From positions 1 to 36,650 of the forward strand of contig QQNC01000007.1 in the NCBI GenBank assembly GCA_003402695.1: a DNA stretch of 36,650 nucleotides, in the 5' to 3' direction. Positions 2,335 through 27,012 of this stretch are shown here, one piece after another (within the stretch, counting starts at the first letter, position 1; every line of letters starts with the position of its first letter). This stretch comes from Verrucomicrobiota bacterium (GTDB lineage: Bacteria; Verrucomicrobiota; Verrucomicrobiia; Opitutales; Opitutaceae). The position numbers and the translations under genes were made by a program. The notes beneath the pieces were generated by a model. The model was not told the origin of the DNA and ran no database searches. It was given only the letters and a program-made list of their open reading frames with translations.

Positions 2335-2742
2335 ATGCCCTTCGCCTACCACCGCACGGTTCATTTCCCCGACACCGACGCCGCCGGCGTGGTCTTCTTC
2401 GCGAACTATCTCGTCATCTGCCATGAGGCCTACGAAGAGTCGCTCGGCGCCGCCGGAATCGAACTCGCCCAATTTTTCTCGGACACCGGCGTGGTCGTAC
2501 CCGTGTCCAAGAGCGAGGCCGACTACCTGCGCCCGCTTGCCTGCGGCGACAAACTCCGCGTCAGCGTGACCCCCGCCCTGCTGTCGGAAAATTCCTTCGA
2601 GATCCGCTACGAGATCACCCGGCTCGGCCACGGCGACAAGCTCGCCGCCCGCATCCGCACCGAGCACGTCTGCACCTCGCCGACCAAGCGGGAACGTGCC
2701 GCGCTACCGCCGGCGTTGGCCGCCTGGGTGAAGGCGGGTTAA
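2335..2742 (+). CDS. Hotdog-fold acyl-CoA thioesterase, probably DHNA-CoA hydrolase
   Basis: This 135-residue 4-hydroxybenzoyl-CoA thioesterase-type protein has the family signature near its N-terminus, [15 protein letters not shown], in which the second Asp is the expected catalytic residue. It is convergent with menE and close to menC, so the likely substrate is 1,4-dihydroxy-2-naphthoyl-CoA, released after MenB in menaquinone synthesis (the MenI step). That substrate is inferred from neighbours, because hotdog thioesterases are hard to assign by sequence. The ATG at 2335 places the hotdog signature at the expected distance, and GGAG lies about 12 bases upstream. The much longer ORF beginning at 559 is an antisense read-through of polX. 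Confidence 0.85.
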
Positions 2743-2743
2743 C

Positions 2744-2791
2744 GTAGGGTGCGCGCTCGCGCGCAACGATGCCCCCGAGCGGGCAACCTAC
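2744..2791. repeat. Two-hairpin palindromic element between convergent genes
   Basis: The 48 bases between the thioesterase gene and menE are bounded by inverted GTAGG/CCTAC. They contain the perfect palindrome TGCGCGC-TC-GCGCGCA and a second weaker GCCC/GGGC stem. The right end covers the menE stop codon. It may act as a bidirectional terminator, though no T-tract follows, or be a small interspersed element. Confidence 0.5.
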
Positions 2792-3957
2792 AGCCGAACC
2801 GCCGCCACCAACGCCGCCCGATTCAGCTTCCCCTGCGCATTGCGCGACCACTCCGCCACCGCCACGTAACGTTTCGGCCGCTTGAACGCCGTCAGGCCCG
2901 CCAGGGCCGCCGTCAGCCGCGCTGGATCCGGCTCTTTGCCCCCCGCGGGATAACACGCCACCACCGTCTGCCCCCATTCCGGATCCGGCAGACCCACCAC
3001 TCCCACATCCGTAAACTCACCGCTGGCGCGCAAGGCCGCCTCCACCTCCGCCGGCTGGACTTTTTTTCCGCCGGTGATGATCACCGCATCGCGGCGGCCC
3101 AAGACGTGTAGCCGCCCGCGTTCATCCAGCTGCCCGAGATCCTCGGTGATGAATTCCCGCGCCGCACTTTCCCCGGGGAAATAACCGCGGAACACCGACT
3201 CGCCCGTGATTCTGATCACGCCCTCGCCGTCGATGGCAATCCGCGCGTGCGGCAGCGCCGCACCACTGCTGCGATCACCCGCCAGGAATTCCGCCGGGCG
3301 CAGCGCCGTCACCATCGCCGCAGTCTCGGTCATCCCATAGCTCAGCGACACCGGCAGTTCCGCGCGGGCCGCGGCGTCCGCCAGCTCAGGCCACACCGGG
3401 CCCCCGCCGACAAAGATCACCCGGAATCCCCGCAGCCAGACCACTGCGTCCGGCGAGAGCAGCAGCCGTTGCAGCTGCGTCGGCACGAGCGATATCACCC
3501 AGTTCTCCGCCGACAGCACCGGCCGCCGGCCCGCCTCGATTCTTTTCCACTCCGCCGCCAGATACTCGCCGCCCGTCGCCGCACAGCGCACCCGCGCCAT
3601 CAGCCCGCTCACATGGTGCGAGGGCAACACGCCGACCGCATTCACGCGCTCGAGTCCGAAATGCGCGCAAAACCCCTCCACCGCCGCCGACAGCGTGCGC
3701 TCATCATGCCGCGCAAACCGCACCTCGCCACTCGTCCCGCCCGTCGGCAGGCAGAGCCAGCCGTCGGCACTATTCGAAGTTGGATTCCCTCCTTCGCCAA
3801 GGCGAGGGAGGGCGGACTCGAATTTCGCTTGCTGGATCGCGGCCACGGCCGCGCGCTCGGCCGCGCCCCATGCGGGGTCGCACAGAAACGTGAACCCGTT
3901 ACGGACTTCCGCGCAGCCGGTGGACCGGAGCAATTTACTCAGCTCAGTGCGTTCCAT
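2788..3957 (-). CDS. menE: o-Succinylbenzoate-CoA ligase (MenE)
   Basis: MenE adenylates o-succinylbenzoate and forms its CoA thioester in the menaquinone pathway. The 389-residue protein shows the adenylate-forming P-loop-like motif PTGGTSG near residue 71, SYGMTE in the middle, and a C-terminal domain with TEDLGQLDERGRLHVLGRRD and GGKKV. The expected catalytic Lys lies in QGKLNRA near the end. MERTELSK is chosen as start, overlapping the 3' end of menC by 19 bp and implying coupled translation. The protein is short for an acyl-CoA ligase but within the range of compact MenE proteins. Residues about 45-62 are encoded by a palindromic DNA insert just before the P-loop. Confidence 0.9.
   Translation of the reverse strand: MERTELSKLLRSTGCAEVRNGFTFLCDPAWGAAERAAVAAIQQAKFESALPRLGEGGNPTSNSADGWLCLPTGGTSGEVRFARHDERTLSAAVEGFCAHFGLERVNAVGVLPSHHVSGLMARVRCAATGGEYLAAEWKRIEAGRRPVLSAENWVISLVPTQLQRLLLSPDAVVWLRGFRVIFVGGGPVWPELADAAARAELPVSLSYGMTETAAMVTALRPAEFLAGDRSSGAALPHARIAIDGEGVIRITGESVFRGYFPGESAAREFITEDLGQLDERGRLHVLGRRDAVIITGGKKVQPAEVEAALRASGEFTDVGVVGLPDPEWGQTVVACYPAGGKEPDPARLTAALAGLTAFKRPKRYVAVAEWSRNAQGKLNRAALVAAVRL
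3772..3823. repeat. In-frame palindromic element inside menE
   Basis: A 12-bp stem (CCCTCCTTCGCC at 3787-3798 against GGCGAGGGAGGG at 3801-3812, one G:T pair) has a two-base centre. It is nested in an outer ATTCGA/TCGAAT pair. The whole segment is translated as part of MenE (residues about 45-62, SALPRLGEGG) without disturbing the frame. Confidence 0.65.
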
Positions 3958-4994
3958 ACGGCCTCCGGTTGGATCCGCTCGACGTCTTCCCAATGCAAAA
4001 ACGGGCCCGTGTACGGCCCGTCGAAGCGTCCATCCGCAAACAAGGGCCACACGCCGAACCCCAGTGCCCTGGGCTCACCCGGCCACGCAAACGCCGCGCG
4101 CAGCGCCGCCTTCGCGCCCAGCCGCGTTTCCAGCGACGAGGAAAACACCACCACCGCCTTCGCCTTGGCCAGCCGGGCGAGCGTGCGCTTCACGTCGCCC
4201 AGCAGCGCCGGCTTCACCACGAAAACCCCGCGCCACCCCAGTCCCAGCCAGCGCTCCACTTCCCCATCACCCGTCAGCGATTCGTCCAACGCCAGCGGCG
4301 TCGGAAAATCCTCCGCCAGGCCCAGCAATAGATCATCCATCTTGCTCAAGGCCGGGCCCGGAGACCTGCACGCCGCAGGCTTGGCGAACGACGGAGGTCC
4401 GCTGAAAACAGGCTGCTCCACAAACTCCACCGGCCGGTCGGCACAGCGTTCGAGCCAGCGTTCCGCCTGGCGCCGGTTCCACGCCCCGTTCGCATCGAGC
4501 CGCAGCTTCGCCCCGCCCGGCAGCGCGGCACACACGTCGTCGAGCAGGGCCAGCTCGTCGGCGAGGTCGCCCACGCCCACCTTCCACTTGAACACCCGAA
4601 ATCCCGCCTCCGCCTTCGGTCCGATCTGCGTCAGCGCCGCCCGTCCCGCCGGCAGCAACGCCGCCACGCCGAGATGAATCTGCGCCGGTGCCCGCTTGAC
4701 GGCTTCTTCCCGCGCCACCTCCAGGGCATTTTTCAGGCAGCCCAGCCGCTCCGGCACGGCGTCCAATCTCCGGTCATCGACGGCCTCGCCGAGTTCACGG
4801 CAAACCGCCTCAACCTCGTCCACGGTCTCGCTTCCAAACCACGGAATCGGCGACGCCTCGCCATAGCCCGTCTGCCCCGCGGCGTTGAGCAGCTGCACCA
4901 GCACCCCTTCCCGGTCCGCCCACGGGCCGTGCGCCGTCCGCACGGGCGAACGGAAGGGCAGCCGGTAGCGGCGGTAGTGCAGGCGGTAACTCAC
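3939..4994 (-). CDS. menC: o-Succinylbenzoate synthase (MenC)
   Basis: MenC is an enolase-superfamily enzyme that dehydrates SHCHC to o-succinylbenzoate, the substrate of the overlapping menE. With the GTG start the product is 351 residues. The superfamily residues are visible: KWK (K136, K138), D167 in RLDANGAW, E193 in VEQP, D237 in LDES and K261 in VVKP. The start [22 protein letters not shown] is typical of the family. The longer ORF-track start adds about 55 residues lacking family character. Between E193 and D237 the chain is longer than expected, and residues about 198-214 correspond to a repeat-like insert. The gene diverges from guaB and is the upstream member of menC-menE. Confidence 0.9.
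4354..4402. repeat. In-frame repeat-like insert inside menC
   Basis: The segment contains the imperfect inverted pairs GACCT/AGGTC and CGCC/GGCG, and the string CTTGGCGAACGACGGAGG. The latter shares CTTGGCGAA with the element in menE. It encodes [17 protein letters not shown], low-complexity residues between the EQP and DES catalytic motifs where other MenC proteins have a short loop. Confidence 0.5.
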
Positions 4995-5076
4995 GCCGCA
5001 CACGTCACACGCCCCTCGAGCCCGGTGCAAACCTGACTTTCTGTTTGCGCTCGGCGCCCATGGCCTTACTGCGTTC

Positions 5077-6720
5077 ATGGCAATCATGACTAAGGTTGCC
5101 TCTCCCGCCCGTTCCGCGTCCGCCAAGAGTAAAGCGCCTGCCAAGGCCGCCCTGTCCACCCCGGGCTTAACGCCGTCAGACGCTGATTTTTACCTTCCGG
5201 CCGACGCGTTTTTCCGGGCGAGCGTTCCCACCGCGCTGACCTTCGACGACGTCTCGCTCGCGACGCTCTACTCGGAGATCCTGCCCAAGGACGCCAACAC
5301 CGCGACGGCGCTCTCCGACGCCCTCCGGCTCCAGATTCCCGTCATCTCCTCGGACATGGACACCGTCACCGAGTCGCGCATGGCCATCGCCATGGCGCTC
5401 AACGGCGGGCTCGGCCTCATTCATTACAATATGCCGTCCCGCGAGCAGGTGAAGGAGGTCGCCCGCGTTAAACGCCACATCCACGGGCTCATCCAGGACC
5501 CCATCACCGTCACTCCGGGCCAGCTCATCGGCGATGTCATCGCGATGATCGAGTCAAGGGGCTTTGCGTTCTCCACTTTCCCGGTCGTGGACGCCGGCGG
5601 CAAACTCGCCGGCCTGCTCTCCGGCAATGTCGTCAAGGACCGCTACAAGACCAAGCAGGTCTCCGCGGTGATGACCCCGCGCGCCCAGCTCATCACGGTG
5701 CAGGAACGCGATGTCGCCAAGGACCCGATCAAGGCCGCCGACCACTTCTTCTCCTCCCACGTCGGCCTGAACAAGATGCTCGTGGTGGATCCCGCCGGCC
5801 GCCTGCGCGGCCTCGTCACCATTTCCGACGTCGAGAAAATCACCGGTGAGGCCAAGTCCCGCAACAAACCCGCCCGCGACTCCCAGTTCCGCCTCGTCGT
5901 CGGCGCCGCCCTCTCCCCGGTCCGCAAACCGGACGGCTCCCTCGACCGCGACCAGATCCTCACGCACGTCGGCCAGCTCGTCGAAGAGCACATTGACACC
6001 ATCGCCGTCTCCAGCGCCCACGGCCACACCGAGAGCATGGGCGCCGTGGTGAAGCTCGTCCGTTCCGCATTTCCGGATCTCACCCTCATCGCCGGCAACG
6101 TCACCAGTGCCGCCGGCGTGTCCTTCCTCGCCGACTGCGGCGCGAACGCCATCAAGATCGGCCAGGGTCCCGGCTCGATCTGCACCACGCGCATCGTCGC
6201 CGGCGTCGGCATCCCCCAGCTCACCGCCCTCTACATCGCCAGCGCCGCCGCCCGAAATAAGGGCGTCCGCCTCATTGCCGACGGCGGCATCACCAAGTCC
6301 GGCGACATCGTGAAGGCCCTCACCCTCGCCGACGCCGTCATCTGCGGCGGCCTGCTCGCCGGCTGCCGCGAGGCCCCGGGTGAAATCATCGAGATCAGCG
6401 GCAAGGTTTATAAGCAGTACCGCGGCATGGGCAGCCACGCCGCCATGAAGGCCGGTTCCGCCAGCCGCTACGGCCACGACAAGGTCGACACGACCCGCAA
6501 GGCCGCCGCCGAGGGCATCGAGGCCCTCAAGGAAGTTTCCGGCTCCGTGGACGACGTCCTCGCCAATCTCATTGGCGGCGTGCAATCCGGCATGGGCTAC
6601 CTCGGCGCCGCCACGCTGCCCGAACTGCGCGCCAAGGCCCGCTACGTGCAGGTCAGCGCCGCCGGCCAGAAGGAAGCCGCCCCCCACGACGTGATCGAGG
6701 TCGCCACCCGCAAGGGCTGA
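5077..6720 (+). CDS. guaB: Inosine-5'-monophosphate dehydrogenase, divergent
   Basis: IMPDH oxidises IMP to XMP, the committed step of GMP synthesis. The 547-residue protein has an unusual Ala/Lys/Pro-rich extension of about 45 residues, then the barrel start ([15 protein letters not shown]). A CBS pair spans about 137-255. The catalytic loop is GPGSICTTR, with the cysteine near 369, followed by IADGGI and YRGMGS. Several normally invariant positions differ: AVSSAHGHT replaces the usual D-T-AHGHS, GQGPGS replaces GIGPGS, and [13 protein letters not shown] replaces the usual GGMFAGTxESPGE. It is too long, and has CBS domains, so it is not GMP reductase. ATG 5086 is an alternative start. No clear Shine-Dalgarno sequence precedes either. 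It diverges from menC. Confidence 0.88.
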
Positions 6721-15940: not shown

Positions 15941-16030
15941 TGTCATTCTGAGCGCAGCGAAGAATCCAGTGAGATGGCGCCGCGCGCTTCGCGGTCGTCC
16001 AACTGGATTCTTCCCTTCGTTCAGAATGAC
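15941..16030. repeat. 90-bp interspersed palindrome, copy 1
   Basis: Arms 15942-15970 (GTCATTCTGAGCGCAGCGAA...) and 16002-16030 (...CGTTCAGAATGAC) are inverted copies, 26 of 29 matching. This is the type of repeat that generates spurious CHSERSEES reading frames in many bacterial genomes. It fills the gap between comF and truA. A diverged copy of the same length is at 25951-26040. Confidence 0.88.
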
Positions 16031-16118
16031 AGTCCGAGGATGAATCGATTCCCCCATTCCGCACCGCACGCTTCCGCGATAAATCCGTATCCGCGTCTTC
16101 CACGGACGGCCGGGGTCG

Positions 16119-25943: not shown

Positions 25944-25950
25944 GCCCGTT

Positions 25951-26040
25951 TGTCAGTCTGCGCGCAGCGAAGACTCCCGTGGAACTTCGCTGCGCACTTT
26001 GATTCCGGCCAACTGGACCATTCGCCTCGGTCAGAAGGAC
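25951..26040. repeat. 90-bp interspersed palindrome, copy 2 (degenerate)
   Basis: Aligned without gaps to 15941-16030, about 66 of 90 positions match, including TCTG(A/C)GCGCAGCGA on the left and AACTGGA plus TCAGAA on the right. The inverted arms are decayed (about 17 of 26 pairs). It lies between the isomerase gene and the DUF4214 gene. Confidence 0.75.
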
Positions 26041-26049
26041 CCTCCGGCC

Positions 26050-27012
26050 ATGACCGCTTCCTCCAAACTGCCCAGCTGCCCGGCCTTCTTGCTGGGCGCG
26101 CTCCTCGCCCTGCTCGCCCTCCCCGTCCGCGCGCAACCCGTCTCCCGGCCCGGCCCGCTGCCCGGAACGCCGTATGGCCCGCCCCCGGGGCGTGTGCTGT
26201 TTTTCCCGGGGCCCAATTTCAGCGGCGAGCCCCTCATCGTGCCGGCCGCCGGTGCCCTCGAGAATCTGGAATACGTCCGCGACTCCCGCGGCCGCAAGTG
26301 GAACGACCGCATCGCCTCCATCCGGGTCGAGGGCCCGGTGCTGCTCCTCCTGTATGAGCACGCCGATTTCCAGGGCGCCACCGCGACGTTGACCCGCGAT
26401 GCCGCCGACCTGAATGCCCTCTCGCTCGGCGACCACCACGGCACGACCTGGGCCCAGCGGGTTTCCTCCGTCCGCATCGAACCCCTCCGGCCGGCCGCCC
26501 CGGGTTTCATCCAGTGGGAACGCCGCGACGCCGAACGCGCCGTCCGCGCCGCCTACCACGACCTCCTCGGCCGTGATCCTGACGAACGCGGCCAGCGCGA
26601 TTACCGCGACCGGCTGATGAGCCGCGGGTGGACCGAGGACCAGCTGCGCGATGCCATCCGCCACAGCCCCGAGTTCCTCCACCGCGACGTCAGCGAAATC
26701 ATCCGCCGGCTTTACCGCGAGGTGCTCCGGCGCGAGCCCGATCCCGCCGGCAGTGCCAAGTACTCCCGCGCCCTGCGCGAGGGCCTGTCGGAATCCGAGC
26801 TGCGGGCCGAACTCCTCCGCAGCCGCGAATACGCCGAGCTTCACGCCCGGGAAGTCATCGCCCGTGCCTACCGCGAAATTCTCCGCCGCGAGGCCGACGC
26901 CGCCGGATTCGCCACCTACCTGAAGCGCATGGCCGAGCAGGGCTGGGACGAAAACCGCGTCCGCGACGCCCTCCGCTCGAGCGACGAATACCGGCGGCTG
27001 CCGCGGCGCTAG
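26050..27012 (+). CDS. Exported beta-gamma-crystallin plus DUF4214 repeat protein
   Basis: The 320-residue protein has a signal peptide (LLGALLALLALPVRAQP). Two beta-gamma-crystallin Greek-key motifs follow: FFPGPNFSG near 51 and YEHADFQG near 102, each ending in a DRIASIRV or QRVSSVRI segment like the calcium-binding part of that fold. The C-terminal half holds three DUF4214-like helical repeats of about 52 residues (AAYHDLLGRDPDERG, LYREVLRREPDPAG, AYREILRREADAAG). DUF4214 is common in S-layer, phytase-like and RTX proteins, but its pairing with a crystallin module is unusual. The ORF track's earlier start runs through the 90-bp palindrome, so ATG 26050 is chosen. Confidence 0.85.
   Translation: MTASSKLPSCPAFLLGALLALLALPVRAQPVSRPGPLPGTPYGPPPGRVLFFPGPNFSGEPLIVPAAGALENLEYVRDSRGRKWNDRIASIRVEGPVLLLLYEHADFQGATATLTRDAADLNALSLGDHHGTTWAQRVSSVRIEPLRPAAPGFIQWERRDAERAVRAAYHDLLGRDPDERGQRDYRDRLMSRGWTEDQLRDAIRHSPEFLHRDVSEIIRRLYREVLRREPDPAGSAKYSRALREGLSESELRAELLRSREYAELHAREVIARAYREILRREADAAGFATYLKRMAEQGWDENRVRDALRSSDEYRRLPRR

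Follow-up and report, generated by a model that had tools for sequence, protein, structure and literature searches.

The menC gene of the Opitutaceae genome studied here very probably contains a copy, by now slightly decayed, of a selfish palindrome that is dispersed and non-autonomous, resembles the RPE and REP elements and is tolerated in protein loops. The copy lies in the window, by which we mean the whole analysed stretch of 36,650 nucleotides (contig QQNC01000007.1), and a second copy of the same family is found in menE, the gene that overlaps the end of menC (Table 1). The preliminary description of this DNA proposed that the two inserts belong to one mobile family that tolerates translation; with 17 copies in the genome and in-frame copies in other genes, the view of a single dispersed, translated family holds, and we infer from filled and empty sites that its units move as DNA.

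Fixed-length inserts in conserved enzymes are a readable record of how selfish DNA shapes proteins. The present family has core genes with both occupied and vacant sites, it recurs in the same MenC loop of different genera, and it is shared between distant phyla; with these three features the spread of tiny palindromes without a transposase, which is an old question, becomes testable. The repeat would also explain the odd, lineage-specific peptides SFAKAxxG, LRQGYGGQ, SLGEGG and VALAKxG in annotated proteins.

Table 1. Positions of the menC and menE features, numbered along the window
Feature	Position	Strand	Basis
menC (o-succinylbenzoate synthase), host gene; stop included, start codon approximate	3939..5009	-	ORF; Pfam; NCBIfam; solved homologue 2ozt
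Length-variable MenC loop, 26 residues, EFVEQP to LLLGLA	4332..4409	-	Opitutaceae orthologue alignment
30-bp repeat unit CCGTCGTTCGCCAAGCCTGCGGCGTGCAGG within menC	4365..4394	-	Core pattern, 1 mismatch; unit length from tandem arrays
Imperfect palindrome GGACCTCCGTCG...AGGTCTCC that includes the menC unit and extends beyond it	4360..4400	-	Sequence; hairpin fold of the G107 version
menE (o-succinylbenzoate-CoA ligase), overlaps the end of menC	2788..3957	-	ORF; Pfam; NCBIfam
30-bp unit CCCTCCTTCGCCAAGGCGAGGGAGGGCGGA in menE, read SALPRLGEGG; orientation opposite to the menC copy	3787..3816	+	Filled/empty-site comparison

The repeat in menC and its host loop

The reading frame of menC is intact and open across the repeat segment, and the NCBIfam match to o-succinylbenzoate synthase is split around residue 251 of the 406-residue ORF. 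When MenC is aligned with its closest solved homologue (2ozt), the extra residues fall exactly at the repeat segment. The low-complexity insert reported in the preliminary description is thus real, and it is the span given there that has to be replaced, by the separate limits of the loop, the unit and the palindrome listed in Table 1. The position of the loop is taken from the 2ozt alignment because a single-sequence AlphaFold model of MenC was unusable (mean pLDDT 42); we take the loop to join the strand with the metal-binding Glu and the strand with the metal-binding Asp.

The family core is matched at 18 of 19 positions by the menC copy of the window and at all 19 by that of the nearest relative, G107. 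The palindrome of G107 folds as a hairpin with ACCT/AGGT as outer pairs, and the DNA fold of the window copy taken alone is unremarkable (z 0.86). It could be argued that there is no insert, and that the GC-rich codons of an ordinary variable MenC loop resemble the repeat by chance, since loop length varies throughout the family and many orthologues combine a long loop with DNA that is not repeat-like. However, we consider this extremely improbable in view of the two core matches, of the synonymous recodings of the loop, among which only 2 out of 1000 equal the real DNA in their match to the repeat, of menE, where a member of the family forms a clean 30-bp insertion, and of the 17 core copies in the genome as opposed to none with the reversed control.

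Orthologous MenC proteins lack a conserved counterpart of the segment, as was expected of an insert. The loop has 10 residues and lacks the repeat in the congeners G141 and G059, it contains other palindromic sequences in the congeners G085 and G015, and in G119 and G099, which belong to another genus, it carries a 30-nt copy of the repeat that encodes AFAKAMADKS or a close variant. Shorter loops, e.g. FAKASQG encoded by TTCGCCAAGGCTTCGCAGGGC, are found in several genera; some of these CFAxxSxG-type loops are likely to be old remnants of the repeat, and others may simply be normal protein sequence. In contrast to the clean single insertion of menE, the menC site is a loop with variation in all lineages. 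A clean empty site is not seen in relatives of high identity, as G085, at 91.6% nucleotide identity, has a different palindrome there, and the exact boundaries of the menC insert are therefore uncertain. Copies, variants and other palindromes have probably been gained and lost after the EFVEQP strand in different lineages.

At loci L022, L028, L013, L014, L031 and L038, a second site of MenC, the linker before (V)AALLPAG, contains larger palindromes such as GTAGGGCGGGTCTCTGACCCGCCCT...AAGGGCGGGTCGCAGACCCGCCCTAC, whose ending GCCCTAC gives GTAG on the opposite strand. These are apparently translated dimers of GTAG REPs, and GTAG-tipped palindromes seem to occupy this linker in G043, G054, G141, G059 and G031.

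Anatomy and copy number of the repeat family

The aligned copies give the consensus (g)CCCKCC-TTCGCCAAGGCTWCGG-MGGGCagg, a palindrome of roughly 30 bp in which a nearly fixed centre, TTCGCCAAGGCTWC, is enclosed by 6-bp arms that vary from copy to copy and keep their complementarity. Arm position 3 is complementary in 43 of 58 copies, as compared to 24.7 expected if the arms are shuffled among copies, and in 64 of 82 copies from genomes of many phyla (41.5 expected); position 6 co-varies likewise in the first set, and the pairing ends after about six bases. Where W=A, the reverse strand of a copy reads GTAG next to a small CCTT-GGCG-AAGG hairpin. Close neighbouring copies on the same strand are spaced by 30 bp in 13 of 17 pairs, and a head-to-tail array of the 30-bp unit is present at L321:7351-7500, in a contig labelled as an Akkermansia muciniphila MAG. 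The unit is therefore 30 bp, or ten codons, long, and consensus units are free of stop codons in five or six of the six frames. The repeat occurs as single units or as head-to-tail arrays, and is found outside genes, after tRNA-Ser genes and in frame within genes.

Copies were counted with the core pattern TTCGCCAARSCTNYGGMGG at up to one mismatch and with the reversed pattern as control; the consensus was drawn post hoc, with the data already seen, and the reversed control is clean. The genome of the window has 17 copies (control 0), and 38 copies (control 3) if two mismatches are allowed, so the menC segment does have relatives elsewhere in the genome. Among 150 Opitutaceae genomes the core is found in 103 at up to one mismatch, with 0 to 46 copies per genome (control 0-3) and 1102 copies altogether. 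The 18-mer that had been proposed for the genome-wide search fared less well, as its one exact match is the segment itself. This is because its GACGGAGG half is a copy-specific arm, the informative half being the repeat core TTCGCCAAGCCTGCGGCG.

Three copies begin exactly 4 nt past tRNA-Ser genes (G000:C46:4604, i.e. L115, as well as L143 and L147), and the hairpin arm of these copies takes in the CCA of the tRNA.

Arms that pair in this way raise the question whether the hairpin is functional as RNA or DNA, e.g. in transcript stability, pausing or protein binding, and is kept by selection, in which case the menC and menE copies would regulate the menC-menE transcript. The compensatory changes that preserve pairing across copies and phyla, and the constant distance of three copies from tRNA-Ser genes, agree with such a role. 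On the other hand, copies in coding DNA are present or absent between close species, related genomes have anything from 0 to 46 copies, matching arms could also arise by palindrome-correcting replication errors, and a scan of 2700-5200 with the Rfam 15 covariance models found nothing up to E = 1. On balance we regard a selected hairpin function as unlikely.

In-frame copies in menE and other genes

At menE, the genome of the window (G000) and G107 have exactly 30 extra in-frame nucleotides as compared to G085, G015, G141 and G059, and these 30 nucleotides are the sole length change between filled and empty sites. A target duplication is not visible at this site, which is the one clean insertion site. 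The menC and menE copies have the word TTCGCCAAG/CTTGGCGAA in common and belong to the same family, in agreement with the DNA similarity that had been pointed out between them. When 17-38 copies are placed at random, there is a 6-26% chance that some two fall within 600 bp, so the presence of two inserts in one pathway needs no special cause.

The menE unit is surrounded by an in-frame tract rich in A/T (AATCGAAAATCGAAAATC-like; window about 3770-3850) that varies between species and that was also compared in G085, G015, G141, G059, G043, G025 and G095; the tract itself may be another repeat.

Further in-frame copies are found in Pfam-supported genes, namely in the sucB linker, purL, ygjP, a class II aldolase gene and an RsmB-like methyltransferase gene of the same genome, in tatD of G107, and in pnuC, proA and two RNA methyltransferase genes of G015, where a helicase gene, which was outside the Pfam scan, also has a copy. 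The intragenic copies are read in several frames and in both orientations, and the sites that were compared are variable loops or linkers. In close relatives the repeat stretch is missing from tatD and purL, and the ygjP site is variable.

We suggest that the units are mobilised by a putative machinery acting in trans. With a length of 30 bp and nearly all six frames free of stops, a unit inserted in a gene would usually lengthen the protein by about 10 residues and leave the frame intact. Insertions that land in flexible loops would persist, and are probably tolerated rather than useful.

Relation to known elements and spread across bacteria

The palindromic elements of Rickettsia and Wolbachia are translated as in-frame inserts in unrelated conserved genes, and also occur outside genes. 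It is instructive to compare the present repeat with these and two other kinds of element. Firstly, RPEs are palindromic repeats found in frame within genes and translated (PMC3733652), and the present repeat, a dispersed palindrome in frame within conserved genes (menE, menC and other Pfam-supported genes) and also intergenic, shares these features with them and with the Wolbachia elements. It is different from RPE, as far as descriptions can be compared, in its 30-bp unit, in its presence in Opitutaceae as well as in many other phyla, and in a fixed centre with co-varying arms on either side. In R. conorii, RPE-4 and RPE-6 have been equated with CGTC repeats (PMC3733652).

Secondly, Opitutus terrae, a member of the same bacterial family, has many translated GTAG REPs, including those in both uvrA genes and in DNA ligase (Di Nocera et al. 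2013, PMC3733652), so translated palindromic inserts are an already published phenomenon in this family. The GTAG REP families of O. terrae are divided by alternative complementary stem residues (PMC3733652), and the present repeat was compared with GTAG-17, -19 and -20 through their descriptions. REPs are palindromes of 20-40 bp in high copy number; the present repeat fits in size and palindromic form, and its copy number is moderate, 17-46 in rich genomes (one mismatch). The repeat could be assigned to the GTAG/CGTC REP superfamily, with RAYT (Y1 HUH transposase) mobilising it as in O. terrae, given that it is like the O. terrae REPs (PMC3733652) in size, in hairpin form, in having many copies within ORFs and in its host family, and that GTAG stands on the reverse strand beside the hairpin of copies with W=A. 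However, the GTAG/CGTC tag is absent from both ends of the aligned copies; GTAG is internal and is found in part of the copies, those with CTTC or CTAT being without it. In addition, there is no real copy in 163 kb around 50 Y1-transposase loci, which are a part of all Y1_Tnp genes, where two-mismatch matches are at chance level. No Y1_Tnp match was obtained in the genome G017, which carries 29 copies, and the correlation between copy number and Y1_Tnp number in the 150 genomes is weak (rho 0.17). Mobilisation as a RAYT-dependent REP is thus quite unlikely, and the repeat is not classified as a REP because it has no terminal tag and no association with a transposase was seen.

Thirdly, the repeat is like MITEs in being non-autonomous, dispersed inverted-repeat DNA, the arms being the inverted repeats. 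It is unlike them in size (30 bp as opposed to 70-300 bp, PMC3733652) and in the lack of a visible target duplication at menE; a parent insertion sequence was sought among Y1_Tnp genes only. Judged by titles and abstracts, none of the papers retrieved with pieces of the repeat sequence deals with such a repeat, and a search for interspersed repeats in Opitutaceae yielded no paper. We keep to the reading of a selfish palindrome tolerated in loops, one that works like RPE or an intragenic REP.

The repeat extends far beyond the family. An exact 29-mer is found in contigs labelled as Opitutae, Akkermansia, Kiritimatiellae, Acidobacteria, Omnitrophota, Planctomycetota, several Patescibacteria, Alphaproteobacteria, Desulfobacterales and Flavobacteriales; most of these are MAGs, for which contamination is possible case by case. 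Some of the copies lie in surroundings of 36-42% GC. We speculate that a single, hitherto undescribed hairpin element of 30 bp, its centre fixed and its self-complementary arms free to change, might cross phyla and insert in frame without a resident transposase of its own. The presence of one and the same 29-mer in many phyla, and also in genomes of about 36-40% GC, might then reflect horizontal spread. We consider this reading less likely than not.

An exact repeat core is also present in 39 viral contig stretches of IMG/VR (L434-L472), and phages might carry the repeat between hosts. Elsewhere in the window, the segments 15941-16031 and 25948-26053 contain the inverted repeat TGTCATTCTGAGCGCAGCGAAGAATCCAGT together with a second, 73% similar copy of a 106-nt stretch, which looks like another dispersed repeat.
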